Shown here: one piece after another, positions 3,005 through 58,864 of the stretch | How positions within the stretch are numbered: position 1 is the stretch's first letter | Layout: the number at the start of each line of letters is the position of its first letter | Origin: Lutibacter oricola | GTDB lineage: Bacteria > Bacteroidota > Bacteroidia > Flavobacteriales > Flavobacteriaceae | Reading direction: 5' to 3' | Assembly: GCF_900106565.1 (NCBI RefSeq) | Contig: NZ_FNNJ01000001.1 | Span: forward strand, 124,001 to 188,000 | DNA: 64,000 bases | Notes under the pieces: generated by a model | The model's input: only the letters and a program-made list of their open reading frames with translations | Told to the model about the DNA's origin: nothing | The model's database searches: none | Position numbers and translations under genes: made by a program

Positions 3005-5143
3005 TTAACCTTTAATTTTAGATTTGCTAGGTAATTCTTTATAACCCATATTGTACAATGTGAATCCGAAAATATCGGCATATTGCTCAATAGTTTTAGA
3101 AACTGGAGTTCCAGCTCCGTGACCAGCATTTGTTTCAATTCTAATTAATGTTGGATTGTTTCCAGCTTGTTTTGCTTGTAATTCAGCAGCATATTTAAAT
3201 GAATGTGCAGGTACAACTCTATCATCGTGATCACCAGTAGTAACCATTGTTGCAGGGTATTGAACACCTTTTTTTACATTATGTACAGGCGAATAACCTT
3301 TTAAATATTCAAACATTTCTTTAGAATCTTCAGCAGTTCCATAATCGTAAGCCCAACCAGCACCAGCTGTAAATGTGTGGTAACGTAACATATCCATTAC
3401 TCCAACAGCAGGTAAAGCTACTTTCATTAATTCTGGACGCTGTGTCATAGTTGCACCAACTAATAAACCTCCATTACTTCCTCCTCTAATTGCTAAATAT
3501 TCAGAAGAAGTATATTTTTCAGCAATTAAGTATTCTGCAGCAGCAATAAAATCATCAAATACATTTTGTTTTTGCAATTTAGTTCCAGCATCGTGCCATT
3601 TTTTACCATATTCTCCACCACCACGTAAGTTAGGTACTGCGTAAATTCCTCCTTGCTCCATCCATACAGAATTTGCAATGCTAAAACTAGGAGTTAAACT
3701 AATATTAAAACCTCCATAAGCATATAAAATAGTTGGGTTTTTACCATTTAAAACAGTTCCTTTTTTATACGAAATAATCATAGGAACTTTTGTACCATCT
3801 TTTGAAGTATAAAATACTTGTTTAGATTCAAAATCTTCTGAGTTGAAATCAATTGCAGGTTTTTTATACAGTTCACTATCTCCAGTTTTTGGTTTAAATG
3901 AATAAATTGAACCTGGCGTTATGTAGTTTGTAAATGAATAGTAGATAGTTTCGGCATCCTTTTTACCACTAAATCCTCCAGCTGATCCAACACCTGGTAA
4001 TTCAATATTTCTAACTAGTTTTCCATTAAAATCATATTGCATTACTTTAGAAACTGCATCTACCATATATTTTGCAAAAATATATCCACTTGCATCAGAA
4101 ACGCTTAGTACATTTTCAGTTTCAGGAATTACATCTACCCAATTTTTTTTACTTGGATTTTTAACTGAAACTTTTACTACGCGTTTGTTTGGAGCATCAA
4201 CATTTGTTGTCATGTAGAAATAACCATTTTTATGGTCAATTACATTAGTGTCATTATCAAACCCTAAAATAATAGGTTTAATTTGGCTATTTGGATTAGA
4301 AAGGTCTTTGTAATACAATTCGTTTCCTGAGGTTGATACCGATGCACTAATAATTAAATATTTTCCATCGTCAGTAACGCTACCACCAACATAACGCCTT
4401 TTATCTTTGTCTCCAAAAATAATAGGATCGTTGGCTTGTTTTGTTCCTAGTTTATGGTAAAATAAACGGTGTTGATCTGTTTTAGCAGAAAGCTCACTTC
4501 CTTCAGGTTTTTCGTAACTAGAATAGTAAATACCTTCGTTTTCTTTCCAAGATAAACCACTAAATTTTACATCAATTAAAGTATCTTCTTTAATTTCTTT
4601 TGAAATGGCATCCATAATAATAATTTTTCTCCAATCGCTTCCGCCTTCTGAAATTGAATATGCAACTGTATTTCCGTCTTTAGAAAAAGACATACCGCTT
4701 AAAGAAGTTGTTCCATCTTCAGAAAAAGTATTAGGGTCTAAAAATACTTCAGGTTTTTCATCACCTTTTGAACGATACAAAACATATTGGTTTTGAAGTC
4801 CGTTATTTTTATAGAAATAAGTATAGTCTCCTTCTTTAAAAGGCGAACCAATTTTTTCGTAATTCCATAATTTTTCTAAACGATTTTTTAATTCATCTCG
4901 GTAAGGAATATTAGATAAATAATCGAAAGTAACTTTGTTTTGTTCACCAACCCATAAGGCTGTTTCTTCGCTCATATCATCTTCTAGCCATCTGTATGGA
5001 TCTTTTACATCTGTTCCAAAATAATTAGTAACAGTATCAACTTTTTTTGTTGTAGGATATTTCAAGTCAACAATTTTTTTTGAGTCAGAATTACATGCAA
5101 CCATAAGAACTCCAACAAGTGTTAATAAAAATAAATTTTTCAT
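3005..5143 (-). CDS. Prolyl oligopeptidase family (S9A) lipoprotein
   Basis: A serine peptidase that cleaves short peptides after proline. I chose the ATG at 5143 because it begins a lipoprotein signal ([17 protein letters not shown], Cys17), giving 712 residues. An upstream in-frame ATG at 5203 adds 20 residues without signal character. Residues about 30-430 form the beta-propeller lid, including DPYRWLED near the start. The alpha/beta-hydrolase domain holds Ser556 (GGSNGG), Asp in DHDDRVVP (638-641) and His675 (NAGHGAG), so the triad is complete. Lipidation suggests anchoring in the periplasm or outer membrane, where it would process imported peptides. Confidence 0.93.
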
Positions 5144-45372: not shown

Positions 45373-45439
45373 TTAACAATTGAGTTACATAAGTGTAAAG
45401 CTATAATAACCTTTAATTAACATTGAGAATAGATATTTG
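45373..45439 (+). promoter_or_regulatory. Pho-box-like array and promoter, gene at 45463
   Basis: Five contiguous 11-base units start at 45373, 45384, 45395, 45406 and 45417; the clearest are TTAACAATTGA and TTAACATTGAG. A 4-base gap leads to the -7 box GATATTTG (45432-45439, one mismatch). Spacing and phase equal those at 45857 and 50891. Confidence 0.6.
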
Positions 45440-45462
45440 TAGCATAAAAAATAATAGTAGTT

Positions 45463-45843
45463 ATGAGGTTTTTAGTTGTTTTATTTTTAATGGTAAGTAC
45501 GTTTTCATTTGGTCAAACATTTGAAATGGAATCTTTAATTAAAGAAAACACAAACGGTGTACTACAAGGTGTTGTTCTAGATAACGAGGTTAGTAACGAG
45601 CCTTTGGCTTTTGCCTCTGTAACCATTAAGGAAACAAACACTACAATTAAAACAGAGTTAGATGGTACTTTTTCATTTAACTTAAAGCCAGGTTTTTATA
45701 CATTGGAGTTTAGTTTTATTGGTTACGACTCTGTTGTGGTTAGTAAGATTGAAGTAAGCTCTAATTTAACTACAGTAAAAAATCAAAAATTAAAAGCTTT
45801 AGAGGTAAGCTCAATGTCTTCGATTACGCTTTCAGAAAAATAA
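45463..45843 (+). CDS. Stand-alone carboxypeptidase-like regulatory (TonB receptor N-terminal) domain protein
   Basis: A 126-residue exported protein (MRFLVVLFLMVSTFSFGQ). Residues about 35-108 are a single CarboxypepD_reg-like domain that closely parallels the N-terminal extension of the receptor encoded next: GVVLDNEVSNEPLAFASVTI here versus GTVYDKEAANAPLPFANVFI there, both with LEFSFIGY/LVFSFIGY. No plug or barrel follows. It could be a duplicated remnant or a soluble periplasmic partner for the TonB system. It has its own Pho-box-like promoter, which argues for function. Confidence 0.75.
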   Translation: MRFLVVLFLMVSTFSFGQTFEMESLIKENTNGVLQGVVLDNEVSNEPLAFASVTIKETNTTIKTELDGTFSFNLKPGFYTLEFSFIGYDSVVVSKIEVSSNLTTVKNQKLKALEVSSMSSITLSEK

Positions 45844-45856
45844 CCGAAAAATGCTA

Positions 45857-45934
45857 GTAACGTTTAATTAACGTTATAATTAAGTTTTTATAAACACGGG
45901 TTAACTTTTCATTTACGTTGTAACAGTTTCTTTG
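45857..45934 (+). promoter_or_regulatory. Pho-box-like array and promoter of the TonB receptor
   Basis: Six 11-base steps start at 45857, 45868, 45879, 45890, 45901 and 45912. GTAACGTTTAA, TTAACGTTATA, TTAACTTTTCA and TTTACGTTGTA are clear units; 45890 is degenerate. After a 4-base gap comes TTTCTTTG (45927-45934) followed by CAGC, nearly the same as the porin promoter. Confidence 0.62.
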
Positions 45935-45956
45935 CAGCAAGAAATTAAAACAAAAA

Positions 45957-48788
45957 ATGAAAAGAATAATAACAGCAATTTTGATCCTTATAAGTGCGGT
46001 TGCATTTAGTCAATCAAAAGGACTTATTACCGGAACAGTTTATGATAAAGAAGCTGCAAACGCACCATTACCATTTGCCAATGTATTTATTAAAGATACT
46101 ACCATTGGGGTAACTACAGAGTTTGAAGGAACTTATACTTTACAAGTAGACCCTGGAACATACACTTTGGTATTCAGTTTTATAGGTTATCAAACTATAG
46201 AAGTACCAAATGTTGTTGTAACAGCAGATGGGAATACGGTAATTGATAAAACATTAAATGCTAGTCAAGGAGTTTCTTTAGATGAGGTACTTATTACAGG
46301 TACTACTAAAAAAGAATCTGAAACTGCTTTGTTAACGGAGCAAAAGAAAGCTGTTGAAATTAAGCAAAGTATTGGTGCTGATGAGTTAAATAGAAAAGGT
46401 GTAAGTGATGCAGCTGCTGCAATTACAAAAATATCAGGTATTTCTAAAGAAGGTTCGAGTAATGTATACGTTCGTGGATTGGGAGATAGATATTTAAATA
46501 CTACTTTAAACGGTTTATCAATGCCTTCTAATAACATTAATAAAAAGAATATAGATTTAAATTTATTTTCTTCAGATGTTATTCAAAATGTTTCTGTAAG
46601 TAAAGCATACGCTGCTAATTTTTACGGAGATTTTGCTGCAGGTAATGTAAATGTTACTTCAAAAGAGTTTACAGGCGATAGCTTTTTAGATGTATCGGTT
46701 TCTACAAGTGTTAACACAAATGCAGCTGATAAAGATTTTGTAAAAAGTGATGGAACTGGATTTTTTGGGTTCTACGGTAGATACGAACATAATCCTTATG
46801 CAGTGGTATTATCTCACGGTGTTGATCCAATTTCTGCACAAACGCCAATTAATACGGGTGTAAGTTTATCTGCAGGAAAATCATTTGATGTTGGTGATGC
46901 AGGAAGGTTAAGTTTATTTATAACTGGAAGCTTTGATAATAATTATACTTTTTTTGAAGGTAGAGAAACTGATTATACAAATGTTGAGAAAAAATCTTTT
47001 CCAAATGTAGATCGTTACAATTACTCAACTAATTCTACAGTAATGGGAAGTGCTATTTATAAAATTAACGATTTCAACAAAATATCTTATAACTCATTAT
47101 TTATTAATAGTTCTAGTGATGAGGTTGGTTACTATGGTGTAAAAGGTTTAGGATCTAATCGTGATGCTCGAATTGATACAGATGCTGGTTTTTACCAAAT
47201 GAATGTACAATTTAATCAAGATTTAGTATTTGTAAACCAATTATTAGGAGAACATACGTTAGTTGAAGATAAATTGGAACTAGATTGGGGATTAGGTTAT
47301 AACAATGTGTACTCTCACGAACCAGATAGAAAAAGAATTTCTTTAGAGGAATATTACAACCATTTAGATAGTGATCCAAATACATATGCAACTTTATACA
47401 CAAATAACTCTTTTGACAACCAACGTTATTTCGAAAAAATTATAGATGAAGAATTAAATGGTCGTTTTAATTTAAAGTATACGGTTTCGGATGATTTTAA
47501 ATTAAACTTTGGAGCAAACCATAGAGCAAAGGAGCGTAATTTTAAGAATATTAGATACGGTTACAAAAACATTGATAGTTCTTTTAATGTAGACCCTAAT
47601 AATTTCAACGCAATTTTTAATTACAATAACTGGGCAGATGGATTGTATGATACTGATGTGTTTAAAGCTTTATATCCTGAAGGTGAAGGCGTATTTCATA
47701 TAGGGCCAACAAATTTTCCTGGTAAATACGAGAACACCTATAAAGGAGAGTTAGAAACCTATTCTATGTATACTTCAGCAGAAATTAATTTAGGCGAAAA
47801 ATGGTTAATAGTTCCAGGTGTAAGATCTGAATGGTTTAGCCAAACAATTAACTACGATGTTGTAAACTTAATTAAAAACCCGGGAGTTGCTGAGGTAACC
47901 GAAGAGTTGTTATTACCAACATTAAATGTAAAATATGCGCTGAATGATGATATTAACTTACGTTTTTCAGTTAGTAATACAGTTTCATTTCCAGAATTTA
48001 AAGAAATGGCGCCTTATGTATACGAAAGTGTAACACAAAGAATTGGTGGTAATCCAGATTTATTAGGTCATCAAGAAGGTGTTAACTATGTAAATGTTAA
48101 AGATGTTTCTTACTCAGATATTTTAAATGTAGATTTTAAATTCGAATGGTTTGTTTCAAGAGGTGAAATTATTTCATTAGGTGCATTTGCAAAAGAAATT
48201 AAAGATCCTGTAAACTTAGTTGTTGCAAATGATGCAACAGGTACTCAACGTTTTTTTAGAACTGGAGATAAAGCAAAAGTATATGGTGTTGAGGTTGAAG
48301 TGAAAAAAGATATTTTAATGAATGAAGATGATGAAGCTAAATTATCTGGAGGTTTCAACATTTCTTATATGCATACAAAACAAGACTTATTTAATACAAT
48401 TCAAGGTACATACAGTACAGCATTTAATAGAGATAGTGATGAGCTTCAAGGAGCATCTCCGTTATTAGTAAATGCAGATTTAAACTTTAGACCAAATTTT
48501 GGTGAAAAGGTTGAGCCAACAATAAACTTAGTAGCCAACTATTTTTCTGATAGAATTTTCGCATTAGGTTCTGGTCAATTAGGAAACAAAATAGAAAAAG
48601 GATTTGCAACATTAGATTTTGTTTGGAAAAATAAAATTGGAGAGAAAACTGAAATAAACTTCAGTGCAAAAAACATTTTAAATCCAGAAATAGAAATTTT
48701 CAGAGAATTATCTAATAACCAAGAAGTAGTATTAGAAAGCTACAAAAAAGGTTTAAACATAGGCCTTCAATTCAAATATAACTTTTAA
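45957..48788 (+). CDS. TonB-dependent outer-membrane receptor, predicted phosphate-regulated
   Basis: A 943-residue receptor: signal peptide (MKRIITAILILISAVAFSQ), a CarboxypepD_reg-like extension (about 20-105), a plug (about 125-230, with KEGSSNVYVRGLGDRYLNTTLNG), and a 22-strand-type barrel ending in the aromatic GLQFKYNF. TonB-driven uptake through the outer membrane is the family role. The ligand is not apparent from sequence; the promoter array and the neighbours suggest a phosphorus-containing compound. The lipoprotein gene that follows after 32 bases is probably its partner. Confidence 0.85.
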   Translation: MKRIITAILILISAVAFSQSKGLITGTVYDKEAANAPLPFANVFIKDTTIGVTTEFEGTYTLQVDPGTYTLVFSFIGYQTIEVPNVVVTADGNTVIDKTLNASQGVSLDEVLITGTTKKESETALLTEQKKAVEIKQSIGADELNRKGVSDAAAAITKISGISKEGSSNVYVRGLGDRYLNTTLNGLSMPSNNINKKNIDLNLFSSDVIQNVSVSKAYAANFYGDFAAGNVNVTSKEFTGDSFLDVSVSTSVNTNAADKDFVKSDGTGFFGFYGRYEHNPYAVVLSHGVDPISAQTPINTGVSLSAGKSFDVGDAGRLSLFITGSFDNNYTFFEGRETDYTNVEKKSFPNVDRYNYSTNSTVMGSAIYKINDFNKISYNSLFINSSSDEVGYYGVKGLGSNRDARIDTDAGFYQMNVQFNQDLVFVNQLLGEHTLVEDKLELDWGLGYNNVYSHEPDRKRISLEEYYNHLDSDPNTYATLYTNNSFDNQRYFEKIIDEELNGRFNLKYTVSDDFKLNFGANHRAKERNFKNIRYGYKNIDSSFNVDPNNFNAIFNYNNWADGLYDTDVFKALYPEGEGVFHIGPTNFPGKYENTYKGELETYSMYTSAEINLGEKWLIVPGVRSEWFSQTINYDVVNLIKNPGVAEVTEELLLPTLNVKYALNDDINLRFSVSNTVSFPEFKEMAPYVYESVTQRIGGNPDLLGHQEGVNYVNVKDVSYSDILNVDFKFEWFVSRGEIISLGAFAKEIKDPVNLVVANDATGTQRFFRTGDKAKVYGVEVEVKKDILMNEDDEAKLSGGFNISYMHTKQDLFNTIQGTYSTAFNRDSDELQGASPLLVNADLNFRPNFGEKVEPTINLVANYFSDRIFALGSGQLGNKIEKGFATLDFVWKNKIGEKTEINFSAKNILNPEIEIFRELSNNQEVVLESYKKGLNIGLQFKYNF

Positions 48789-48820
48789 AACAAAATATGA
48801 ACATTAATAATTTAAAAACG

Positions 48821-50005
48821 ATGAAGAATACATTTTTAACTTTGGCTATAGCTTCAGCATTATTTATCTCTTGTGGAGAAGATGACACAGCTGATATTAT
48901 TATCAACAACACAGACAATTCAGTAACAAACACTACTACAGGAGGAACAACTGATCCTAATGCAAGTGAAAAAATAAGCATTTCAGGAGTTCAGTCAAGT
49001 GACTTATTATTAGAGGCTAAAAATGAATACACTTTAACAGGTGCATTAGTAATGGAAGCTGGTACTACTTTAACTATTGAAGAAGGTACTGTAATTAAAG
49101 CGCAAGCTTCAGGATCTGATGTGTATATTGCAATTGCACAAGGAGCAAAAATTGTTGCAGAAGGAACTAAAGATAAGCCAATTATTATGACATCTAACTC
49201 TACTGCACCTAAAGCTGGTGATTGGGGAGGATTAATTATTTTAGGAAAAGCACCTATTAACTCTGTTGCTACTGGAACTTCAACTTCAGAAATTGGAAGT
49301 TTACCTTACGGTGGAACTGACGCTACTGATAACTCAGGTACACTTCGTTACGTACGTGTTCAATATTCAGGTGGTAAAGCTGATGGACAGTCTGAAAACA
49401 ACGGATTTTCTTTTTACGGTGTAGGAAGTGGAACTACTGTTGAGTACATTCAAATGTTTGAAGGTTTAGATGATGGTTTAGAATTTTTTGGAGGTACAGT
49501 TAACGTAAGTTATGTTTCTGTTGTAAACGCTCAAGATGATTCTATTGACTGGACTGAAGGTTACACAGGTACTATTATGAATGCTTATGTTATGCACGGA
49601 GCCGACCACGATAAAGCTTTTGAATGTGATGGTTATAATACTGATATAGGTAACAACTCAAGCCCTAAATATTTTTCTGCACCAAACGTAACAAACGTTA
49701 CTGTAGACGGTTTCGAAGGTGAAGCAATTAGATTAAGAGCTGGTACACAAGGAATTTTTACAAACGTTGTAATAAACAACTTTGAAGAAGGATTCGATTT
49801 GGATGGAGATACTTCTGATAACCCAACAGGACAAGGAGTTATTGATGATGTATTACAAGTTAACAATGTTACTTTTAATACTGTAACTGTTAAATTAAAA
49901 AACGATACTGGTTTTTCTTTTACTGAAGCTGATTTTATTTCAGGTGATGGAAATGGAACAGGAACTGATTATGCTACTTGGGGAGCTGGTTGGACTGTTG
50001 AGTAA
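48821..50005 (+). CDS. Beta-helix lipoprotein, partner of the TonB receptor
   Basis: A 394-residue lipoprotein (signal ending ASALFISC, Cys16); an in-frame ATG at 48797 adds eight residues without signal character. After a Thr/Asn/Asp-rich linker the mature part has repeating short strands (GTTLTIEEGTVIKA, DWGGLIILGKAPI, LRYVRVQYSGGKAD, DDGLEFFGGTVN) typical of right-handed beta-helix proteins of Bacteroidota. Position directly after the TonB receptor suggests a surface-exposed ligand-binding lipoprotein, like SusD-type partners but of a different fold. The substrate is unknown. Confidence 0.75.
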   Translation: MKNTFLTLAIASALFISCGEDDTADIIINNTDNSVTNTTTGGTTDPNASEKISISGVQSSDLLLEAKNEYTLTGALVMEAGTTLTIEEGTVIKAQASGSDVYIAIAQGAKIVAEGTKDKPIIMTSNSTAPKAGDWGGLIILGKAPINSVATGTSTSEIGSLPYGGTDATDNSGTLRYVRVQYSGGKADGQSENNGFSFYGVGSGTTVEYIQMFEGLDDGLEFFGGTVNVSYVSVVNAQDDSIDWTEGYTGTIMNAYVMHGADHDKAFECDGYNTDIGNNSSPKYFSAPNVTNVTVDGFEGEAIRLRAGTQGIFTNVVINNFEEGFDLDGDTSDNPTGQGVIDDVLQVNNVTFNTVTVKLKNDTGFSFTEADFISGDGNGTGTDYATWGAGWTVE

Positions 50006-50040
50006 ACTATAAAATATAATTGTTGTTATATAAATAAAAA

Positions 50041-50067
50041 AGGGATGCTTTAAGCATCCCTTTTTTT
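50041..50067 (+). terminator. Terminator of the TonB receptor-lipoprotein operon
   Basis: Stem AGGGATGCTT/AAGCATCCCT followed by T7. Confidence 0.9.
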
Positions 50068-50098
50068 ATAAGCACTATTTAAAAGAATGAGATTTGTG

Positions 50099-50446
50099 CT
50101 AATTAATAATAATGTCTTTAGTTTCTACATTAACCACTTTGTTATTTTTATAAGTAACTAAGTTAACTTTGTCTTTTTTAATAAAACTCCAAGTACCTTC
50201 TTTTTTACCGTTTTTGTAATTCGCAATAATCGTTTTAGATCCGTTTACGTCGTAATTGATCCAAGTACCATGTAACTTACCAGATTTATTAAAGAAACCT
50301 TCACGTTCAACTATATTTGCATTATCTGCAAAGTAATAAGTTGCTTTTGTTAAATCGTTATCAATTTTTTTGAAGTCTACTTTTTGTTCTTGAGCAAATG
50401 TTGTAACACAAAATAATAATACAACTAATTTTAATAATGTTTTCAT
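50099..50446 (-). CDS. Exported MORN-like repeat protein
   Basis: A 115-residue exported protein (MKTLLKLVVLLFCVTTFAQ). Residues about 45-100 hold MORN/YwqK-type repeats (GFFNKSGKLHGTWINYDVNG, ANYKNGKKEGTWSF). Such repeats are common in Bacteroidota envelope proteins of unknown role. It has an exact -7 box and an 11-base repeat array upstream, so it may belong to the same regulon as the neighbouring phosphate genes. Confidence 0.75.
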   Translation of the reverse strand: MKTLLKLVVLLFCVTTFAQEQKVDFKKIDNDLTKATYYFADNANIVEREGFFNKSGKLHGTWINYDVNGSKTIIANYKNGKKEGTWSFIKKDKVNLVTYKNNKVVNVETKDIIIN

Positions 50447-50491
50447 GTCTATATGTTTTTTAAGGTTATTTTTTTAGTTTTTAATAATACT

Positions 50492-50547
50492 CAAATATAG
50501 TAGGTTTACATTAAAATTACAGTTTCTTAACATTAAGTTTACATTAA
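50492..50547 (-). promoter_or_regulatory. Pho-box-like array and promoter of the MORN-like gene
   Basis: On the plus strand four 11-base steps start at 50504, 50515, 50526 and 50537; three are GTTTACATTAA or CTTAACATTAA. An exact -7 box TATATTTG lies on the minus strand at 50499-50492 with a 4-base gap. The units face the opposite way relative to the gene compared with the other arrays. Confidence 0.55.
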
Positions 50548-50726
50548 ATTTTTTAAAAAATCACTTAAAAAACTGATTATCAACACCTAAAGTTTAGTGT
50601 TGAAAGGCGCTTAAAATTTGGATATTTAAAATATTAACATTAGAGTAACAATAAAAAGGGTGTTTAAATCTTAATATTTAGATAATATTTAGTTTAAATT
50701 AAATTAAGATTATTATGTAATATTTG

Positions 50727-50823
50727 TTTTTCTCATATAGAAGATATAACATTTCATAAATATCGTTTTTGTCAACAATACATTGAAATGAAAAAGACCA
50801 CCATTATTTGGTGGTCTTTTATT
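50727..50823 (+). ncRNA. Possible small RNA ending at an orphan terminator
   Basis: A strong terminator (50791-50823) lies inside a 528-base region with no gene. A near-consensus -7 box AATATTTG (one mismatch, 50719-50726) lies about 65 bases upstream on the plus strand. A transcript of roughly 90 bases would fit. No ORF is visible, and the gene on the left is transcribed away. This is an inference only. Confidence 0.25.
50791..50823. terminator. Orphan terminator upstream of the porin gene
   Basis: Stem AAAAGACCACC/GGTGGTCTTTT with a 7-base loop and a T run. No gene on the plus strand ends near it. Confidence 0.75.
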
Positions 50824-50890
50824 TTAATAAAAATTAAAATGTTAGTTTACTATTAAATATGTTTAAAGAATAGATTAAAAAACACTCCTT

Positions 50891-50946
50891 TTAATTATAA
50901 GTTAATCATTAAGAAACATTAACTTAACATTAAAATGAGTTCTTTG
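50891..50946 (+). promoter_or_regulatory. Pho-box-like array and promoter of the phosphate porin
   Basis: Four contiguous 11-base units start at 50891 (TTAATTATAAG), 50902 (TTAATCATTAA), 50913 (GAAACATTAAC) and 50924 (TTAACATTAAA). After 4 bases comes GTTCTTTG (50939-50946), a weak -7 box of the kind expected for activator-dependent promoters. Confidence 0.7.
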
Positions 50947-50974
50947 CAGCGACAAAAACGAAACAACACTATTT

Positions 50975-52165
50975 ATGAAATTCAAAGTATTACTAATTAT
51001 GTTATGGCTTTTAGCCGTACCATTAACTTATTCTCAAGAAGCAAATGCTTCAAAATTTGGAAAAGGTCTTTTTAATTTAAAAGGTGAAAATGACAGCTGG
51101 AGTATGAAAGTTGGTTTACGTATGCAACTTTTAGGAACTTCTAACTGGGAAGATGGAGGCAAAAGCGAAGCAAATTTTTTAACTAGAAGAGCAAGGTTAA
51201 AATTTGATGGTTTTGCATACAGTCCAAAATTAAAATACAAAATTGAATTAGGCTTATCTAATAGAGATCAATCTGGAGCTTCAGAATATACAAGTAACGC
51301 GCCACGTTATATTTTAGATGCACAATTAAAATGGAATTTTTACCAAAATTTTGAATTGTGGTTTGGTCAAGGTAAACTTCCAGGAAACAGAGAGCGAGTT
51401 ATTTCATCAGCAAATTTACAGCAAGTAGATAGATCTTTATTAAATAAAAGGTTTACTATAGATCGTGATTTTGGAGTTCAATTGAGACATAAATTTAATT
51501 TAACGGATAAATTTGTGGTAAAAGAAATATTTTCAGTAGCACAAGGAGAAGGTAGAAATATTACCTCTGGAAATCTTGGAGGTCACCAGTATACTGGGCG
51601 TGTTGAGTTATTTCCTTTTGGAAGTTTTGCTGGTAAAGGAGATTATAAAGGAGCTGATTTACAACGTGAAGCTAAGCCAAAATTAGCTATTGGAGTAAGT
51701 TATGACCATAATAACAATGCTGTTAAAACCAGAAGTAATCAAGGTTCTTATATGGAAACTGATAATGGTTTTTTTGAAACAAATATTAACACTTGGTTTA
51801 TAGATGCAATGTTTAAATATCAAGGGTTCTCTTTTATGGCTGAATATTCAGATAGAACAGCAGATGACCCATTTGCAAAAAACTCTGACGGTACTTTAAC
51901 TGGTGATGTGGTTCAAGTAGGAAACGGATTAAATTTACAAACAGGATATTTATTAAATAATGATTGGGAAGTTTCTGGTCGTTATACAAACATTGAGTTA
52001 GATAAAAATATTACAGGAAAAAATCAAGAGAGCCAATATACATTAGGACTTTCAAAATACATTGTTGGTCATAGTTTAAAGGTACAAACCGACATTAGCC
52101 ATTTAGAAATTGATGGAGGTAATAACGAACTGTTATATAGGCTACAAGTAGATATTCATTTCTAA
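50975..52165 (+). CDS. OprO/OprP-type phosphate-selective porin
   Basis: A 396-residue outer-membrane barrel with signal MKFKVLLIMLWLLAVPLTYSQ. The sequence SMKVGLRMQLLGTSNWEDGG, then RRARLKFDGFAYSPKLKYKIELGLSN, then LWFGQGKLPGNRER matches the phosphate-selective porin O/P family, and the end RLQVDIHF has the terminal aromatic. It would allow passive entry of phosphate or other anions. A 4-unit Pho-box-like array upstream supports control by phosphate. Confidence 0.88.
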   Translation: MKFKVLLIMLWLLAVPLTYSQEANASKFGKGLFNLKGENDSWSMKVGLRMQLLGTSNWEDGGKSEANFLTRRARLKFDGFAYSPKLKYKIELGLSNRDQSGASEYTSNAPRYILDAQLKWNFYQNFELWFGQGKLPGNRERVISSANLQQVDRSLLNKRFTIDRDFGVQLRHKFNLTDKFVVKEIFSVAQGEGRNITSGNLGGHQYTGRVELFPFGSFAGKGDYKGADLQREAKPKLAIGVSYDHNNNAVKTRSNQGSYMETDNGFFETNINTWFIDAMFKYQGFSFMAEYSDRTADDPFAKNSDGTLTGDVVQVGNGLNLQTGYLLNNDWEVSGRYTNIELDKNITGKNQESQYTLGLSKYIVGHSLKVQTDISHLEIDGGNNELLYRLQVDIHF

Positions 52166-52184
52166 GAGCTTAAAACTGAGTAAT

Positions 52185-52222
52185 AAAAAAGGTCGCTATA
52201 TGTTTATATAGCGACCTTTTTT
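52185..52222. terminator. Bidirectional terminator between porin and PiT genes
   Basis: Stem AAGGTCGCTATAT/ATATAGCGACCTT with loop GTTT and A/T runs on both sides. Confidence 0.92.
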
Positions 52223-52238
52223 ATTGGTATAAATTCAA

Positions 52239-54491
52239 CTACTTATTTTCATTATTTATTTGAAACTCTTGAAATAGTTGTAGTAAACTCATTAAAGCTG
52301 TAATTAAATCTTTTGTTTCTAGTAGAATTCCAAAGTATAAAGTAGAATTTTTTGGACTTGTTTCATCTGTTCTAATTCTTGAAATTTGGCTATCAATCGA
52401 ATCAGAAACATGATTTAATAAGTTTTGTTTGTCATCAATTATATACGCAAAGTTTGTAAAGTTTCTTTTATCAAAATCTACAATTATTTGGTCCAGTAAC
52501 TTTTGAAGCTTTTTATTAATTAGTTTTAAATCTTTAATTTGACCTTTTTTAAGGTCTTTATGATTGTTGTTTACATGATTAAAACTAGTTGTAGAAATAA
52601 ACTCAATAGACTGTGTAATATCTTGTAAATATCTTAATACTAGCAAATAAAACCTACTTGCTTTTACTAAACTATCATCTAAAGATTTAATAAAGTAGAA
52701 TATGTCAGATTTTAGTTCGTTTACTTCAGTATTTAATTTTTTAACGTGTTTATCGGTTTTAGATAGCTTGTTTAAATCTTGGTTGGTTAAATCTGTAACA
52801 ACATTGGTGTATAATTTATTTACACGGTTTATTACTTCAGAAATATGTCCCGAACTATCTTCAATAACTTCATTAATAGAATTAACTTCGGCTCTATTAA
52901 CACGTTGTACTTCCTTTTTTTCTTTTAGTTTTTTAGAATGGTTTAAATAACTTCTTACTAATAAAAAAGCTACTATAACTAATAAAACTGCAACTACAGA
53001 AATACCTCCTAAATACATTAAGAAAGCGAATATACCTGCAGCTGTAAAAGCAATAATGGCAGTAGAAAACCAACCAGCAATTACGTTAACTACACCAGCA
53101 ACTCTATAAACAGCACTTTCTCTATCCCAAGCTCTATCTGCTAATGAAGTTCCCATTGCCACCATAAAAGTTACATAGGTAGTAGATAAAGGTAGCTTTA
53201 ATGAGGTTGCAATAGATATTAAAATACCAGCTACCATTAAATTAACAGAAGCTCGTATCATATCAAATGCAGGAAGCTCATATTCTTTATCTTTTGGTAG
53301 TGCTATTGTAGGTTTTTGAAATTGACTATCTATTTTACTAGATATTGAATTAGGTAAAATGCTATTAAGAGTTTTACTTAAACTTACAGTACCTCTAACA
53401 ATTGACCTAGAAAGCATGTTAGATTTAAATTTTTCGTGTCCAGCTCCTTGTCTTGCTAAACCAATTTCGGTTTCGGTTACAGATTTTGCTTTTTTAGAAA
53501 ACCATAAAGTAACTACCATAATTGCACCAGCAATAAATAATAGGGTAGATTCTGTTGGCACTTTTTTAGCTAAAACACCCATAGAAAATTCAGTAGCGGG
53601 CACACCGCTCGCTACCCAAGCATCATAAGAGTGTAGTGCAGCCATTGGCACTCCAATAAAGTTAACTAAATCATTACCTGCAAAGGCTAAGGCTAAACCA
53701 AATGTTCCGATAATAATAACAAGAACTAATATGTTTTTTTTGAATAAGCTTGTGTATAATTGAGAAAGTAAAGTCCAAAAAACAAAACTTCCACCAATAA
53801 TAATAAGTTCGTTACCATTTAAAATATGCTTAACATCTCCATAAAAAGGAGTTCCTTTTAAACCTTTCATAAAGATAAAATAGGTAATTGCTGTTAGTGC
53901 TATACCACCAAAAATAGCCCCAAAATATTTCATTCTTTTTTCATAATGAAATGAAAACACCAAACGAGAAATGTATTGAACAATAGCACCAATAGAGAAT
54001 GCAATTACTACAGACATTAAAATACCAGATATAATTAGCAATGCTCTATCTGAATTTATATAATGACCTAAATCTGCAAAAGTTTGAGCATCATTGGCAT
54101 TAATTTTAATTAATGCAATAGCTACGGCAGCACCTAACAATTCAAATACAATAGAAACTGTAGTTGAGGTTGGCATACCTAAAGAGTTAAACAAATCCAA
54201 CAAAATTACATCGGTTATCATAACCGCCATAAAAATGAACATAATTTCATTAAAGTAAAACTCACTAGGAATAAAAATACCTTTTCTAGCAACTTCCATC
54301 ATACCGCTCGAAAAAACGGCACCAAAGAAAATACCAAAACTCGCAATTATCATTAAAGTTCTTACTGAAACAGCTTTAGAACCCAAAGCGGAGTTTAAAA
54401 AGTTAACAGCATCATTACTAACACCAACCACTAAATCTATTACTGCTAAAATGGTTAATGCCACTAGCATTAATATATAAATATCATTCAT
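52239..54491 (-). CDS. PiT-family inorganic phosphate transporter with C-terminal PhoU-like domain (copy 1)
   Basis: A 750-residue membrane protein. The N-terminal GVSNDAVNFLNSALGSK and the second-half GNDLVNFIGVP are the duplicated PiT (PHO4) signatures, and LKLPLSTTYVTFMVAMGTSLADRAW lies near residue 450. About 250 residues after the last membrane segment are helical and charged (SSGHISEVINRVNKLYTNV, SLDDSLVKASRFYLLVLRYLQDI), like PhoU. The protein would take up phosphate by ion symport, with the tail probably regulating transport. Copy 2 at 56543 is a close paralog. Confidence 0.93.
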   Translation of the reverse strand: MNDIYILMLVALTILAVIDLVVGVSNDAVNFLNSALGSKAVSVRTLMIIASFGIFFGAVFSSGMMEVARKGIFIPSEFYFNEIMFIFMAVMITDVILLDLFNSLGMPTSTTVSIVFELLGAAVAIALIKINANDAQTFADLGHYINSDRALLIISGILMSVVIAFSIGAIVQYISRLVFSFHYEKRMKYFGAIFGGIALTAITYFIFMKGLKGTPFYGDVKHILNGNELIIIGGSFVFWTLLSQLYTSLFKKNILVLVIIIGTFGLALAFAGNDLVNFIGVPMAALHSYDAWVASGVPATEFSMGVLAKKVPTESTLLFIAGAIMVVTLWFSKKAKSVTETEIGLARQGAGHEKFKSNMLSRSIVRGTVSLSKTLNSILPNSISSKIDSQFQKPTIALPKDKEYELPAFDMIRASVNLMVAGILISIATSLKLPLSTTYVTFMVAMGTSLADRAWDRESAVYRVAGVVNVIAGWFSTAIIAFTAAGIFAFLMYLGGISVVAVLLVIVAFLLVRSYLNHSKKLKEKKEVQRVNRAEVNSINEVIEDSSGHISEVINRVNKLYTNVVTDLTNQDLNKLSKTDKHVKKLNTEVNELKSDIFYFIKSLDDSLVKASRFYLLVLRYLQDITQSIEFISTTSFNHVNNNHKDLKKGQIKDLKLINKKLQKLLDQIIVDFDKRNFTNFAYIIDDKQNLLNHVSDSIDSQISRIRTDETSPKNSTLYFGILLETKDLITALMSLLQLFQEFQINNENK

Positions 54492-54511
54492 GATTTCAAT
54501 TTAATATATTG

Positions 54512-54556
54512 CAAAATTAATTTGAAATTAAGTAGTTGACATTAAGTTAATGTTAA
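54512..54556 (-). promoter_or_regulatory. Pho-box-like array and promoter of PiT copy 1
   Basis: On the minus strand TTAACATTAAC (54556-54546) and TTAATGTCAAC (54545-54535) are adjacent 11-base units; TACTTAATTTC continues the phase. The exact -7 box TAATTTTG is at 54519-54512, 15 bases (4+11) after the clear units. A further unit TTAACATTAAC lies at 54587-54577, out of phase by two bases. Confidence 0.7.
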
Positions 54557-54647
54557 TATTAGCCGGCTTATACTATGTTAATGTTAACAAAAATAACCCT
54601 TAATGTTTTAGTTTTTATGTTGTTATAAGTTGGTTGGTAATAATGGG

Positions 54648-56432
54648 TTATTTGTTCTTCTTTTTCTTTTTAACTTTTCCGTTTTCTAATAATGAGTCTT
54701 TTTCACCATATAATAATTCGGCTACTTCAATTAGCTTTTTTATCATATCGTTTACGTTGGTAAAATCATTAAATAGTGAAGAAGCCATTTCTGCAGAAAT
54801 TAAATCTTTTCGAATTAACTTATCTATAGATTTATTACTTTGCCTAATATTTTCTCTAGCATTTTCTTTTAGCTCATTTAGCTTTTCGGCATACTTTTCA
54901 GAGTTTTCTTCAGTGCTAAAAAGGTAAATAACGCGCAATACTTTTGTTACTTTTTTTCTGAAATTATCATATTCATGGTGAAGATCTTTGTTGTTTAAAC
55001 TTACAGAGGAAGTTAAGTTTTTATTCAACTCTCTAATATCCTTTATAATTTCAACCATTTTTCTATTAGCAATTTTAATCTCTGTAATAGTTTTGTGTTG
55101 TTTTTTATTTAAAATTAAATCGCTTTGAACAGTTGTTGCATACCTAATAATTTCGCCATAAATAGATTTTACTTTGGTATAATATAATTCTTCAACATCT
55201 GTTTCCATGTCAACAGTTGATTTTTTTATAATTTTTTTAATCTTTAAATCCGATTTAATATCACTTTGATGAATGTTTAACCCGTGTGCAACTATTTCAA
55301 AAATTGCATTTTTAAATAAATACTCAGATTCTTTTACTAACGAAGAAATAGCAGTTCCAGGAAATTCTAACACAGATTCGGTTAAGAATTTTGCATCATC
55401 AATATCTTTTGTCTTTTTATCTTTAATAACTTTTATTAAAAAACGTTCAAGTATATTAATAAAAGGAATCATAACTAAAACACCCAGCACATTAAAAATG
55501 GTATGAAATAGTGCTAGTTTTAAGGTATAATCATCGTGGGCTATTTGTAATAATTCAGATAAATGATTAACTAGTCTTGCTAATGGAAATATTAAAATTA
55601 AGGTTATAATACCGGTGGTAACATTAAAAACTAAATGTGCTCCAGCAAGACGTTTTCCAGCAATGTTTGAACTTAAAGATCCTAAAACCGCAGTAATTGT
55701 TGTACCAACATTGGCTCCAATTGCTAATGCAAGTGCGTTTTCATATTCTATTTGTCCAGCTGCAAGTGCTGTTAAAATTAAGGCCAGTGTTGCGCTACTA
55801 GATTGTAAAATAGTAGTTATTAAAATTCCTAAACCGGCATAAATTAAAGCTCCTAAAAATCCTGAAACTGCAAATTGGGTAAGGTCTATATATTGCTTAA
55901 AAATATCAAAACCTTCTTTCATATAATGTATACCAAGAAAGAAAAAACCTAACCCAGCTAATACATTTCCAACACCTTTTAGTGCTACTTTTTTCTGAAA
56001 AGAAAATATGATTCCAAAAATTAGCATTGGCATAGCTAATGCCGAAATCTTAATTTTTAAACCAAAACCAGCAACTAGCCAAGCTGTAGCAGTTGTACCA
56101 ATGTTTGCTCCAAAAATTAATCCTAAACCTCCAGAAAGGCTAATTAAACCAGCGCTTATAAATGAAATTGTAATTACTGACACTAAAGAACTAGATTGAA
56201 TTAAAGCAGTAACAAAAGCACCAGCTGTAATACTTTTGTATAATTTATTAGTAGCTTTTTTTAATATATTTTGAAGCGGACCTTTTGTAAATACTTTAAA
56301 ACCTTCTTCAAGCATTATCATTCCAAATAGTAAAATGGCAACACCTGCGGAAATTGTTTTAAAATTAGGGTTAAAGTAAAGTACAACAGCTAAAGCGGCT
56401 AAAAATATAGTAAAGGAAACTTTTCTAATCAT
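54648..56432 (-). CDS. Na/Pi cotransporter family protein (NptA-like)
   Basis: A 594-residue membrane protein. The two repeated Na/Pi cores are GAFVTALIQSSSLVSVI (about 72-88) and ILQSSSATLALILTALA (about 213), each followed by GANIGTTATAW or GANVGTTITAV. The C-terminal 230 residues are a PhoU-like helical domain. It lies between the two PiT genes on the same strand and would add a sodium-coupled phosphate route. No array of 11-base repeats is visible directly upstream, so it may depend on read-through from PiT copy 2 or a separate promoter. Confidence 0.92.
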   Translation of the reverse strand: MIRKVSFTIFLAALAVVLYFNPNFKTISAGVAILLFGMIMLEEGFKVFTKGPLQNILKKATNKLYKSITAGAFVTALIQSSSLVSVITISFISAGLISLSGGLGLIFGANIGTTATAWLVAGFGLKIKISALAMPMLIFGIIFSFQKKVALKGVGNVLAGLGFFFLGIHYMKEGFDIFKQYIDLTQFAVSGFLGALIYAGLGILITTILQSSSATLALILTALAAGQIEYENALALAIGANVGTTITAVLGSLSSNIAGKRLAGAHLVFNVTTGIITLILIFPLARLVNHLSELLQIAHDDYTLKLALFHTIFNVLGVLVMIPFINILERFLIKVIKDKKTKDIDDAKFLTESVLEFPGTAISSLVKESEYLFKNAIFEIVAHGLNIHQSDIKSDLKIKKIIKKSTVDMETDVEELYYTKVKSIYGEIIRYATTVQSDLILNKKQHKTITEIKIANRKMVEIIKDIRELNKNLTSSVSLNNKDLHHEYDNFRKKVTKVLRVIYLFSTEENSEKYAEKLNELKENARENIRQSNKSIDKLIRKDLISAEMASSLFNDFTNVNDMIKKLIEVAELLYGEKDSLLENGKVKKKKKNK

Positions 56433-56490
56433 TTATAAAAGGAAATATTTGGTCTAAAAAGTTATAAACTTACATATATTAATTAAAACA

Positions 56491-56527
56491 AAAAAAGCCT
56501 TCAAATAATTTAATTTGAAGGCTTTTT
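56491..56527 (-). terminator. Terminator of PiT copy 2
   Basis: Stem AAAAAGCCTTCAAAT/ATTTGAAGGCTTTTT with loop AATTTA, followed on the minus strand by a T run. Confidence 0.9.
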
Positions 56528-56542
56528 AGAAATATAAGTTAA

Positions 56543-58798
56543 TTATTTATTTCCGTTTTCTTGAACTTGAAATTCTTCATATAATTGAAGTAGGCTCATT
56601 AAAGCAGAAATTAAATCTTTAGTTTCTAATAGAATACCAAAGTATAATGTTGAGTTTTTAGGACTCGTTTCTTCTGTTCTAATTCTTGAAATTTGCTTAT
56701 CAATAGATTCAGAAACGTTATTAAATAACTCTTGTTTAGCGTTTATAATAGTTAATAGGTTAGAGAAATCTCTATCAGAGAAGTCTTTTTCTATTTTACT
56801 AAATAACGATTGTAGCTCATTATTAATAGATTTTAAATCTTTTACTTGAGATTTTTTAAGATTCTTGTGGTTGTTATTAACGTGGTTGTAACTTGTTGTT
56901 GAAATATATTCAATAGACTGTGTTACATCTTGTAAGTACCCTAAAACTAAAATATAAAATCTACTTGCTTTTACAGAAGAGTCATCTAAAGATTTAATAA
57001 AGTAGAAAACTTCACTTTTAAGTTCGTTAACTTCTTTATTTAGTTTTTTAACGTGTTTTTCAGTTTTGGTTAACTTCTTTAAATCGTGGTTAGATAAATC
57101 ATCTACAACGTTTGTAAATAGCTTATTCACACGTTTTACAACTTCAGAAATGTGATCAGAACTTTCCTCAACAACTTCATTAATAGTTATTAACTCAGCA
57201 CGTTCAATATATTTTCTTTCTTTTTTCTCTTTTGCTTTTCTTGTATGTCTAACAGAACTTCTACCTATTAAAAACAATACAATAATTAATAATACAGCTA
57301 CAGAAACAATTTCACCTAAATATATAATGTAAGCAAAAATTGCAGCTACTGTAAATGCAGATAAAGCAGTTAAAAACCAACCACCAATTACGTTAAATAC
57401 ACCAGCAACTCTATAAACGGCACTTTCTCTACCCCAAGCTCTATCAGCTAAAGATGTACCCATTGCTACCATAAAGGTAACGTAAGTTGTAGATAATGGC
57501 AGTTTTAATGAAGTACCAATCGAAATTAAAATACCAGCAACAAATAAGTTAACCGATGCTCTAACCATATCAAAGGCAGGTAATTCATAAGTTTTTTCTT
57601 TAGATAAATCTATAACAGGTTTTTGGAATTTAGAGTCTATCCACTTTAAAGATCTATTAGGAACTACTTTAGCTAAACCAGAGCTAAACAAAATTGCTCC
57701 ACGAACAACAGTTCTAGAAACGGCATTTGATTGAAATTTTTCATGCCCTTCTCCTTGTCGAGAAAGGTTAATACCAGTTTCAATTACTGCTTTTGCTTTT
57801 TTAGAGAACCATAAAGTAATAACCATAATTGCACCTGCAGCTAATAATAGCATTGGGTTAGATGGTACTTTTTTGGCTAAAACTCCCATTGAGAATTCAT
57901 TAGCAGGTATTCCAGAAGCACTCCATTCTTGGTAAGAGTTCCAAGCAGCAATAGGTACACCAATAAAGTTAACTAAATCGTTACCAGCAAATGCCATTGC
58001 TAAAGAAAATGTTCCAATTATTACAATAAATTTTAAAATATTTACTTTGAATAGCATTATTAATAATTGCGATAATATTGTCCAGAAAGCAAAACCATAA
58101 AGGATAATTTCAAAAGTTTTTCCTTCAATTAAGTGTTTAATATCTCCGTAAAAAGGAGTTCCTTTCATACCTTTTACAAAAATAAAGTAGGTAATTGCTG
58201 TAATTGCAAAACCTCCAAAAATTGCATTTATATAACTTTTTCTTTTTTCAAATTGGAAAGAATACAGCAAACGCGATAGGAATTGTACAATTGCACCCAC
58301 CGAAAATGCTATAAATACAGAGAGTAAAATACCCGATATAATTAATAAGGCTTTTTCTGAATTAATGTATTTTCCTAAGCTAGCTATAGTTTCACCTTCA
58401 GCATTAGAAATTTTAATTAATGCCATTGCAACTGCAGCACCCAACAATTCAAATACAATAGAAACTGTTGTAGATGTTGGCATTCCTAATGAATTAAAAA
58501 CATCTAACAGAAGAATGTCTGTTATCATTACCGCCATAAAAATGAACATTATTTCGTCGAAATAAAATTCTGCCGGATTAAAAATACCTTTACGTGCAAC
58601 CTCCATCATTCCACTCGAGGTTATTGCTCCAAGAGCAACTCCAATACTTGCAATAATTAAAATCCATTTCATAGAAATAGCTTTAGAACCAATTGCTGAA
58701 TTCAAAAAGTTTACTGCATCGTTACTAACTCCAACAACTAAATCAATAATTGCTAGTACTGTTAATGCAACAAGCATTAAAATGTAAATATCTCCCAT
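56543..58798 (-). CDS. PiT-family inorganic phosphate transporter with C-terminal PhoU-like domain (copy 2)
   Basis: A 751-residue close paralog of the protein at 52239, colinear over the whole length (GVSNDAVNFLNSAIGSK, GNDLVNFIGVP, TYVTFMVAMGTSLADRAW, SSDHISEVVKRVNKLF). Both copies keep the full set of PiT motifs and the PhoU-like tail, so neither is a pseudogene. They may differ in affinity or in the degree of induction. Its own Pho-box-like promoter lies at 58820-58864. Confidence 0.93.
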   Translation of the reverse strand: MGDIYILMLVALTVLAIIDLVVGVSNDAVNFLNSAIGSKAISMKWILIIASIGVALGAITSSGMMEVARKGIFNPAEFYFDEIMFIFMAVMITDILLLDVFNSLGMPTSTTVSIVFELLGAAVAMALIKISNAEGETIASLGKYINSEKALLIISGILLSVFIAFSVGAIVQFLSRLLYSFQFEKRKSYINAIFGGFAITAITYFIFVKGMKGTPFYGDIKHLIEGKTFEIILYGFAFWTILSQLLIMLFKVNILKFIVIIGTFSLAMAFAGNDLVNFIGVPIAAWNSYQEWSASGIPANEFSMGVLAKKVPSNPMLLLAAGAIMVITLWFSKKAKAVIETGINLSRQGEGHEKFQSNAVSRTVVRGAILFSSGLAKVVPNRSLKWIDSKFQKPVIDLSKEKTYELPAFDMVRASVNLFVAGILISIGTSLKLPLSTTYVTFMVAMGTSLADRAWGRESAVYRVAGVFNVIGGWFLTALSAFTVAAIFAYIIYLGEIVSVAVLLIIVLFLIGRSSVRHTRKAKEKKERKYIERAELITINEVVEESSDHISEVVKRVNKLFTNVVDDLSNHDLKKLTKTEKHVKKLNKEVNELKSEVFYFIKSLDDSSVKASRFYILVLGYLQDVTQSIEYISTTSYNHVNNNHKNLKKSQVKDLKSINNELQSLFSKIEKDFSDRDFSNLLTIINAKQELFNNVSESIDKQISRIRTEETSPKNSTLYFGILLETKDLISALMSLLQLYEEFQVQENGNK

Positions 58799-58819
58799 TT
58801 TTTATTATTATTTAAAGCG

Positions 58820-58864
58820 CAAAAATATATTCATTCTTTTTAGCGTATGTTAAGTTAAGGTTAA
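58820..58864 (-). promoter_or_regulatory. Pho-box-like array and promoter of PiT copy 2
   Basis: On the minus strand TTAACCTTAAC (58864-58854) and TTAACATACGC (58853-58843) are adjacent 11-base units. The exact -7 box TATTTTTG lies at 58827-58820, a 15-base gap, the same as for PiT copy 1. Confidence 0.7.

Follow-up and report, generated by a model that had tools for sequence, protein, structure and literature searches.

The Pho box of Escherichia coli stands in place of the -35 element of the promoter, and that of Bacillus subtilis PhoP is a TTAACA-like word repeated with an 11-bp period at Firmicute sigma-A promoters. The cyanobacterial regulator SphR belongs to another phylum and to another promoter type than those of the Flavobacteriaceae, and the promoters of Bacteroidota are made of -7 and -33 elements. 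Here we analyzed a window of 64,000 nucleotides (G000:C51:124001-188000, the whole stretch of DNA under study) from a 4.12-Mb draft genome of 57 contigs, which belongs to a member of the Flavobacteriaceae whose PiT protein in the window has its best match in Lutibacter (81%). In this window, promoters of a phosphate locus (45463-58798) carry arrays of tandem 11-bp units upstream of a -7 box. The arrays are real, and within the Flavobacteriaceae their reading as Pho boxes is well supported; very probably they are PhoB operators, from which phosphate genes would be activated under phosphate scarcity.

The initial annotation took tandem 11-bp units as the known geometry of Pho boxes, and this is in agreement with what has been described for PhoB of E. 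coli and for SphR (PMC4415409, PMC1906773; these and the other papers cited are represented by excerpts). The E. coli PhoB box is likewise a tandem of two 11-bp units lying immediately upstream of the promoter, but its unit is CTGTCAT and it is combined with a sigma-70 -10 element (PMC4415409, PMC1906773). The SphR box, CTTAACCT of 8 bp followed by a 3-bp linker, shares with our arrays a near-identical unit (CTTAAC), the 11-bp period, and pst and phosphatase genes as targets; it differs in having at least three units, and the excerpts describe no TAnnTTTG -7 register for it (PMC1906773). A partial precedent within the Flavobacteriales is PhoP of Riemerella anatipestifer, a regulator reported to be up in phosphate starvation: DNA affinity purification sequencing (DAP-seq) gave 583 peaks with TTTAACA as the best-conserved nucleotides, and a site lying upstream of its operon was seen by electrophoretic mobility shift assay (PMC9603813). 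Those peaks, however, were set against ArcA and associated with virulence and aerotolerance, and in the excerpts of that paper no 11-bp tandem geometry, Pho box, -7 register or phosphate regulon is described. In Bacteroides fragilis, PhoB binds the pstC promoter as a 512-bp fragment, and the main text gives no PhoB consensus (the word "consensus" has 0 occurrences; PMC3547664). Putative Pho boxes near plcP have been marked by bioinformatics in a set that includes a flavobacterium (PMC4796936). The phosphate-depletion regulon of Flavobacterium johnsoniae has phoBR, a TonB receptor and an FII lipoprotein in common with the genome studied here, and contains further PhoX-like and Pus operons; no operator is mentioned in the main text ("pho box", "promoter" and "motif", 0 occurrences each; PMC8115612). 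In searches of open-licence papers we noticed no description of an 11-bp Pho box for the Flavobacteriaceae. By analogy there is a strong case that the arrays would work like the known Pho boxes. What is new here is a putative Flavobacteriaceae Pho box with two registers, the tandem 11-bp geometry being already known.

Units of the TTAACA/TTTACA type with 11-bp spacing are observed upstream of all six genes for which the initial annotation had claimed such promoters (those starting at 45463, 45957, 50446, 50975, 54491 and 58798), at the places it named. Four of these promoters proved strong. Upstream of 45463 there are five in-register units (45373-45427, plus strand), with unit scores of 6.5, 5.3, 0.5, 6.1 and 8.5, the middle one being poor and the best pair lying at 45406-45427; the -7 box GATATTTG (45432-45439, plus) is found 4 nt past the array, in a register of 29 nt counted from the first TAACA to TTTG. 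The porin gene 50975 presents the same gap and register between its array GAAACATTAAC/TTAACATTAAA (50913-50934, plus) and its -7 box GTTCTTTG (50939-50946, plus). At both PiT genes the array lies 15 nt ahead of the -7 box, in a 40-nt register: TTAACATTAAC/TTAATGTCAAC (54535-54556, minus, conserved in orthologs) with TAATTTTG (54512-54519, minus) for 54491, and TTAACCTTAAC/TTAACATACGC (58843-58864, minus) with TATTTTTG (58820-58827, minus) for 58798, both boxes being placed by sequence scoring. The first two bases of the box are GT at 50975 and GA at 45463, versus the TA of TAnnTTTG.

The two remaining promoters are of another kind. Upstream of 45957, a distal two-unit array (45857-45878, plus) of 12.4 array bits is found without a well-placed -7 box, and a weak proximal array TTAACTTTTCA-TTTACGTTGTA (45901-45922, plus), of just 4.1 array bits, stands by count in the 29-nt register with respect to the box TTTCTTTG (45927-45934, plus). 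In the intergenic region between 50446 and 50975 there are a four-unit array TTTACATTAAA/ATTACAGTTTC/TTAACATTAAG/TTTACATTAAA (50505-50548, plus; best pair, 15.0 bits) and a second array of two units (50634-50655, plus) of 16.9 bits, or 14.7 with the first matrix. The half-sites point away from 50446, and therefore these arrays face the porin gene; the box assigned to 50446 is TATATTTG (50492-50499, minus). Thus, of the six promoters proposed, 45957 is weak and 50446 is reversed. The spacing also proposed (4 nt from array end to box in four cases, 15, that is 4+11, in the two PiT genes) was counted exactly so, with the weak 45957 array included among the four and 50446 giving 4 nt when the strand of the gene itself is used for reading the units.

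The sites were scored with a matrix derived from 60 of 78 PiT orthologs of other species with 150 bp upstream. The criteria for these 60 rows were TAACA-N6-TAACA with no more than one mismatch and TTTG/TTCG at 38-42 nt downstream, and hence the spacing between array and box in them is not independent evidence. The composite score combines a softened array at period 11 with a -7 box at 28-30 or 39-41 nt, and was applied to 1.31 Mb of the genome of the window, in which 445 genes have 100 bp or more of non-coding DNA upstream. Promoters 45463, 50975, 54491 and 58798 scored 21.4, 20.4, 22.4 and 24.5, respectively, values reached by 0 of 1000 dinucleotide shuffles in each case, while 45957 (11.9) was reached by 29 of 1000 and 50446 (8.6) by 252 of 1000, which is not significant. 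Among the 445 genes, 58798 and 54491 rank 1 and 2, aided by their orthology to the training set; 45463 and 50975, independent of that set, rank 3 and 4, and 45957 and 50446 rank 42 and 144. As regards the frequency of such promoters at unrelated genes, raised in the initial annotation, the combination of array and box is rare: a composite of at least 20 was found in 4 of the 445 genes, all inside the window. With decoy periods of 8, 9, 10, 12 and 13 no gene reached 20, and with period 14 three did, including the promoter of PiT 54491. An array-only matrix gave 13 sites of at least 14 bits at period 11 in the same 1.31 Mb, versus 2-5 at periods 8-10 and 12-14.

Elsewhere in the genome, at locus L152, overlapping arrays of 16.8 and 11.9 bits occupy both strands (G000:C51:842265-842298), between the genes 841576-842166 and 842367, and a further array of 12.4 bits lies 1.2 kb off (G000:C51:843459-843480).

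The geometry is conserved in other genera. Among the 78 PiT orthologs (locus L050 of 79 was dropped, having 22 nt upstream), TAACA-N6-TAACA was exact in 48, a number that rises to 66 if one mismatch is allowed; at eleven other periods between 6 and 17, exact matches numbered 0-1 at ten of them and 5 at period 16. The other genes of the same loci, an impure negative set that may include neighboring phosphate genes, gave 26 exact matches in 889 and 118 with at most one mismatch, and 15-26 at periods 9, 10, 12 and 13. A second PiT set comprised 30 genomes from a sample of the family, picked before their PiT promoters were read (31 matches in 30 loci, the second copy of G060 being dropped). In this set, 22 of 30 promoters scored at least 10 at period 11, while periods 8-10 and 12-14 gave 1-2 such promoters; 21 of these 22 have TTTG/TTCG at 40 nt from the first TAACA, and the remaining one has it at 39 nt. 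When the whole TAnnTTTG was considered in 48 PiT promoters, the first position was T in 65% and G in 31%, and the second was A in 100%; the TA is the informative part here, since the rows were preselected for TTTG/TTCG.

At pstS, a classical Pho gene (19 of 22 loci; L027, L034 and L035 were dropped), at least 10 at period 11 was reached in 17 of 19, versus 0-2 at other periods, and 13 of the 19 have TTTG/TTTA at 29 nt. The registers of PiT and pstS are thus one unit apart, as are those of PiT and of the porin and 45463 in the window. The conservation between species that the initial annotation had proposed to look for is therefore present, with period and phase kept at PiT and pstS and the period alone at phoB. 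In other families of the order, to which five of the 22 pstS loci belong, the 29-nt register was found in none of the four scored. The name "Bacteroidota Pho box" given initially is supported as to the Pho box and is too wide as to the phylum, since the evidence covers the Flavobacteriaceae.

The arrays were then compared with published phosphate-depletion data of F. johnsoniae. The genome employed is one contig of 6,096,872 bases (100% identity to the SprA chain, 251 residues), of which we covered 1.02 Mb, with 792 promoters, in the regions where the genes in Table 1 of PMC8115612 were expected to lie. The leads were 17 genes with a fold-change above 4 in that table: Fjoh_0541, 0545, 0546, 0549, 1368, 2478, 3252, 3414, 3841, 3858, 3859, 4171, 4172, 4173, 4577, 4721 and 4723 (PMC8115612). 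Locus tags were assigned by order, neighbors and Pfam, partly after a first ranking had been seen, and low-ranking leads were retained. Fjoh_2225 and Fjoh_4889, unlocated, and PafA (0023), not sought, fall outside the 17, and 1367, 2477, 3249-3251, 3851, 3853-3857, 4168 and 4169 were unscored as leads because they were taken as downstream operon members. The PhoX-like gene was located through its MauG neighbor: PF05787, the current Pfam PhoX model, misses the protein (L261:17890-19371), which is listed under pf05787 in PMC8115612, and fjoh_2477 has been named beside phoX (PMC8812569). For 4172 and 4173 the Pfam matches found here are the reverse of the Pfam columns of the table, and both are leads regardless. 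The matrix was trained on PiT genes alone, from loci of other organisms (a few of them drafts labelled Flavobacterium sp.), and no lead is a PiT gene. The score of array plus -7 box was adopted after two failures with arrays only, its offsets coming from PiT and pstS of other species.

The leads scored above the 775 other genes (p = 4.3e-10) and above those 441 of them that have 100 bp or more upstream (p = 3e-9). Induced genes account for six of the ten highest-ranking promoters among the 792, namely the PhoX-like phosphatase, FecR 3858, the TonB receptor 0545, 3841, 4173 and FecR 3252; leads that lie side by side, for example 3858/3859 and 4171-4173, cannot be counted as independent of each other. 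When the distance from array to box was varied from 15 to 65 nt, the best values for the leads were at 40 nt (11.10 versus a permuted mean of 3.89) and 51 nt (10.01 versus 3.40), and 0 of 20,000 permutations reached either value at any distance. PhoA2 (3187), uninduced at transcript level, ranks 321 of 792, and PhoB (0544), listed as induced with a fold change of 3.06, ranks 141. Taken together, the 17 located promoters agree with the published depletion data (PMC8115612), a phosphate response being the other proposal of the initial annotation.

An OMP_b-brl_3 TonB-receptor-like protein (L297:9379-11496; F. johnsoniae 5459379-5461496, minus), absent from that Table 1, takes rank 5 among the 792 promoters on the strength of an array whose -7 box lies at 41 nt. 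This outer-membrane protein is a candidate new member of the regulon.

As to the regulator, 43 matches to the PhoB model were obtained in the genome of the window, and three of them span nearly the whole model. One is a regulator on contig C23 (G000:C23:154461-156186, a stretch that includes a PhoR-like kinase gene), with receiver and winged-helix domains and an adjacent HisKA kinase. It is best matched by the Bacteroides-type PhoB, and it adjoins the PhoR-like kinase, itself best matched by PnpS and PhoR below the cut-off, and a glycosyltransferase-28 gene, that is, a phoBR-type locus. The phoBR locus of F. johnsoniae has like neighbors: glycosyltransferase 0541, OprP 0542, PhoR 0543, PhoB 0544 and TonB receptor 0545. 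Furthermore, the top array in the 1.31 Mb scored (18.3 bits) adjoins phoB on its upstream side. Among 30 phoB loci, the best matches in 120 genomes with that of the window included, a set that for this reason leans to near relatives, an upstream array was found in 25 at period 11, versus 0-4 at other periods. In addition, four of five genomes without a detected PhoB ortholog (four lack a full-length match and one has a match of 44% identity) also lack the PiT array. The array at phoB itself, the pst and PiT targets and this partial co-loss suggest that PhoB would bind the arrays; it would presumably act there as an activator and not as a repressor, and low phosphate would presumably induce these genes in the organism of the window as well.

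Several results weigh against the reading of the arrays as activating PhoB operators, and we present them together with the alternatives. One of these, compatible with that reading, is that the arrays bind PhoB but repress or autoregulate at some genes, such as phoB and 50446. The half-sites are reversed relative to 50446, which stands apart from the other five promoters, and point away from phoB in 24 of the 25 regions scoring at least 10; no fixed register from array to box exists at phoB, unlike PiT and pstS. A divergent target or autorepression is possible for the phoB arrays (L175-L204). In contrast, the arrays in the 40- and 29-nt registers sit at the position of an activator, the array-bearing genes of F. 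johnsoniae rise on phosphate depletion, and Fjoh_0544 itself is listed as induced (PMC8115612), so that repression at some of the genes seems to us possible but rather doubtful.

The phoB array in the genome of the window faces a gene for a Lamin-tail/Por-secretion-tail protein.

Another OmpR-family regulator could also read the arrays, for example one of the two RprY-type proteins. Regulators of this family share a direct-repeat geometry of 10-11 bp, and this genome encodes two more of them at full length, for which RprY is the best match, below its cut-off (283.7 and 284.1 bits, cut-off 370). The C23 regulator itself misses the curated PhoB cut-offs (NF053854, 210.6 of 270 bits; TIGR02154, 206.8 of 296.2), as the PhoB of F. 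johnsoniae does with both models, and consequently the name PhoB is given to it for its position and best match and does not imply membership. The co-loss is also imperfect: G086, with no detected PhoB and 82% complete, has a strong PiT array, two of the four genomes lacking both are incomplete (G093, 86%; G150, 64%), and where PhoB is divergent (54-60%) the PiT array is missing from five of six genomes as well. Nevertheless, the strongest array adjoins phoB and not the RprY-type operons (16.7 at phoB versus 6.0-8.9 at the four RprY-type upstream regions, best of both strands), the targets are phosphate genes, including pstS and the phosphate-induced genes of F. johnsoniae, and the PiT arrays are missing in four of the five genomes without a detected PhoB. 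We thus consider a regulator of this other kind improbable.

In a genome of 30% G+C, where TTAA-rich words are common, the arrays might be due to chance, or be the A+T-rich upstream elements that strong promoters carry. In the whole genome, a loose exact pattern gave no excess (34 matches versus 51 of a reversed control), so that the sites are scarce rather than abundant. In F. johnsoniae, the strict first matrix gave no hit at the induced genes within the initial 400 kb, period 11 was not in excess when the intergenic DNA of 800 kb was scanned with softened arrays only, and the signal appeared solely with the array plus the -7 box. Decoys reached modest scores, and p-values versus the 441 genes of 0.00017-0.042 with other periods and of 3.9e-5-0.042 with periods and offsets, which means that the score difference is partly one of composition. 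The offsets of 50, 45 and 15 nt, out of register, outrank 62 and 29 nt, which are in register; the latter two beat all permutations at their own distance, and 329 and 496 of 20,000 permutations, respectively, reach their values somewhere in the range. Promoters 3858 (rank 2) and 3841 (rank 7) use 41 and 39 nt and score just 7.7 and 8.5 at 29/40/51. Other induced genes rank low (4171, 86; 4172, 98; 1368, 135; 0549, 212; and PlcP 4577, 270, taken from its first ATG, an upstream TTG start giving 16.3), and OprP 0542, uninduced, ranks 11. Against this explanation, period and register are kept exactly across species, and 40 and 51 nt were the best distances in the permutation analysis. The same exact register is seen again in other genera, and for this reason chance or an A+T-rich element was rejected; we regard it as very improbable. 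The regulon is small and its sites are degenerate. Finally, an ArcA-like redox regulator with phosphate genes as part of its targets, to which the likeness of the Riemerella PhoP DAP-seq motif to that of E. coli ArcA and its tie to aerotolerance would point, is equally improbable, since the regulator purified in that work is reported up in phosphate starvation, its TTTAACA word fits the unit found here, and the F. johnsoniae genes tested are those of phosphate limitation (PMC9603813, PMC8115612).

Under the reading of the arrays as PhoB operators, a mechanism can be proposed. At low phosphate, PhoR would phosphorylate PhoB, whose monomers would bind head to tail to successive TTAACA-like 11-bp units, each close to one turn of the helix in length and hence on one face of it. 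The array, directly upstream of the -7 box TAnnTTTG, would replace the -33 contact and recruit RNA polymerase. Two registers would be used, 40 nt at PiT and at most of the induced promoters of F. johnsoniae, and 29 nt at pstS, the porin and 45463; as they are one unit apart, the same face towards RNA polymerase would be kept. In the window, uptake through the outer membrane (TonB receptor and porin) and the PiT transporters of the inner membrane would be switched on together. About as likely as not is a further idea, a Pho promoter code common to the whole family in which the register (40 versus 29 nt), and not the sequence, would separate promoter classes. These would be the inner-membrane PiT and Pus operons on one side, and pstS, the porin and surface proteins on the other, possibly with different activation mechanics or thresholds.

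The genes of the locus were assigned by Pfam and profile searches of the window proteins. The initial annotation had recognized three phosphate genes on protein evidence, and their number now exceeds three because the genes at 45957 and 48797 match the phosphate-induced Fjoh_0545 and Fjoh_0546, for which Table 1 lists transcriptome fold changes of 8.02 and 9.91 (PMC8115612). The TonB-dependent receptor (45957-48788, plus) is the counterpart of Fjoh_0545 (37.7% over 960 columns), and the protein of 402 residues that follows (48797-50005, plus), without a Pfam match, is that of the FII lipoprotein Fjoh_0546 (37.7% over 417 columns). The product of the gene at 45463-45843 (plus) is small, carries a single CarbopepD_reg_2 domain and shares 39% identity with Fjoh_0545 over 110 columns; with its strong Pho-type promoter, it resembles a detached domain of a TonB receptor. 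The small protein of 115 residues at 50099-50446 (minus), whose upstream array is reversed relative to the gene, has no Pfam match, and the outer-membrane porin (50975-52165, plus) is assigned from Porin_4 and ExtI-type porin matches, both under cut-off. On the minus strand there are a PiT-type phosphate transporter (52239-54491; PHO4 in Pfam), a Na+/Pi cotransporter (54648-56432) that sits between both PiT genes, and the second PiT-type transporter (56543-58798), 72% identical to the first. These three consecutive inner-membrane phosphate transporters are found in a genome without a detected pstS: TIGR02136 gave no match in it, and 21 of 40 genomes searched have one.

Flavobacteriaceae are common in the sea, in soil and in the rhizosphere. 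Their unusual phosphorus-scavenging genes, such as the Pus operons and the FI-FIII lipoproteins, are known from expression data (PMC8115612), while the open-licence papers searched yielded no operator for them; the array described here would supply the operator for the F. johnsoniae phosphate regulon. A defined box with a fixed register would make the phosphate regulon predictable from the sequence and would tie uncharacterised outer-membrane proteins to phosphate. Furthermore, the fixed register would offer a handle on how an OmpR-type activator works at the divergent promoter of Bacteroidota.

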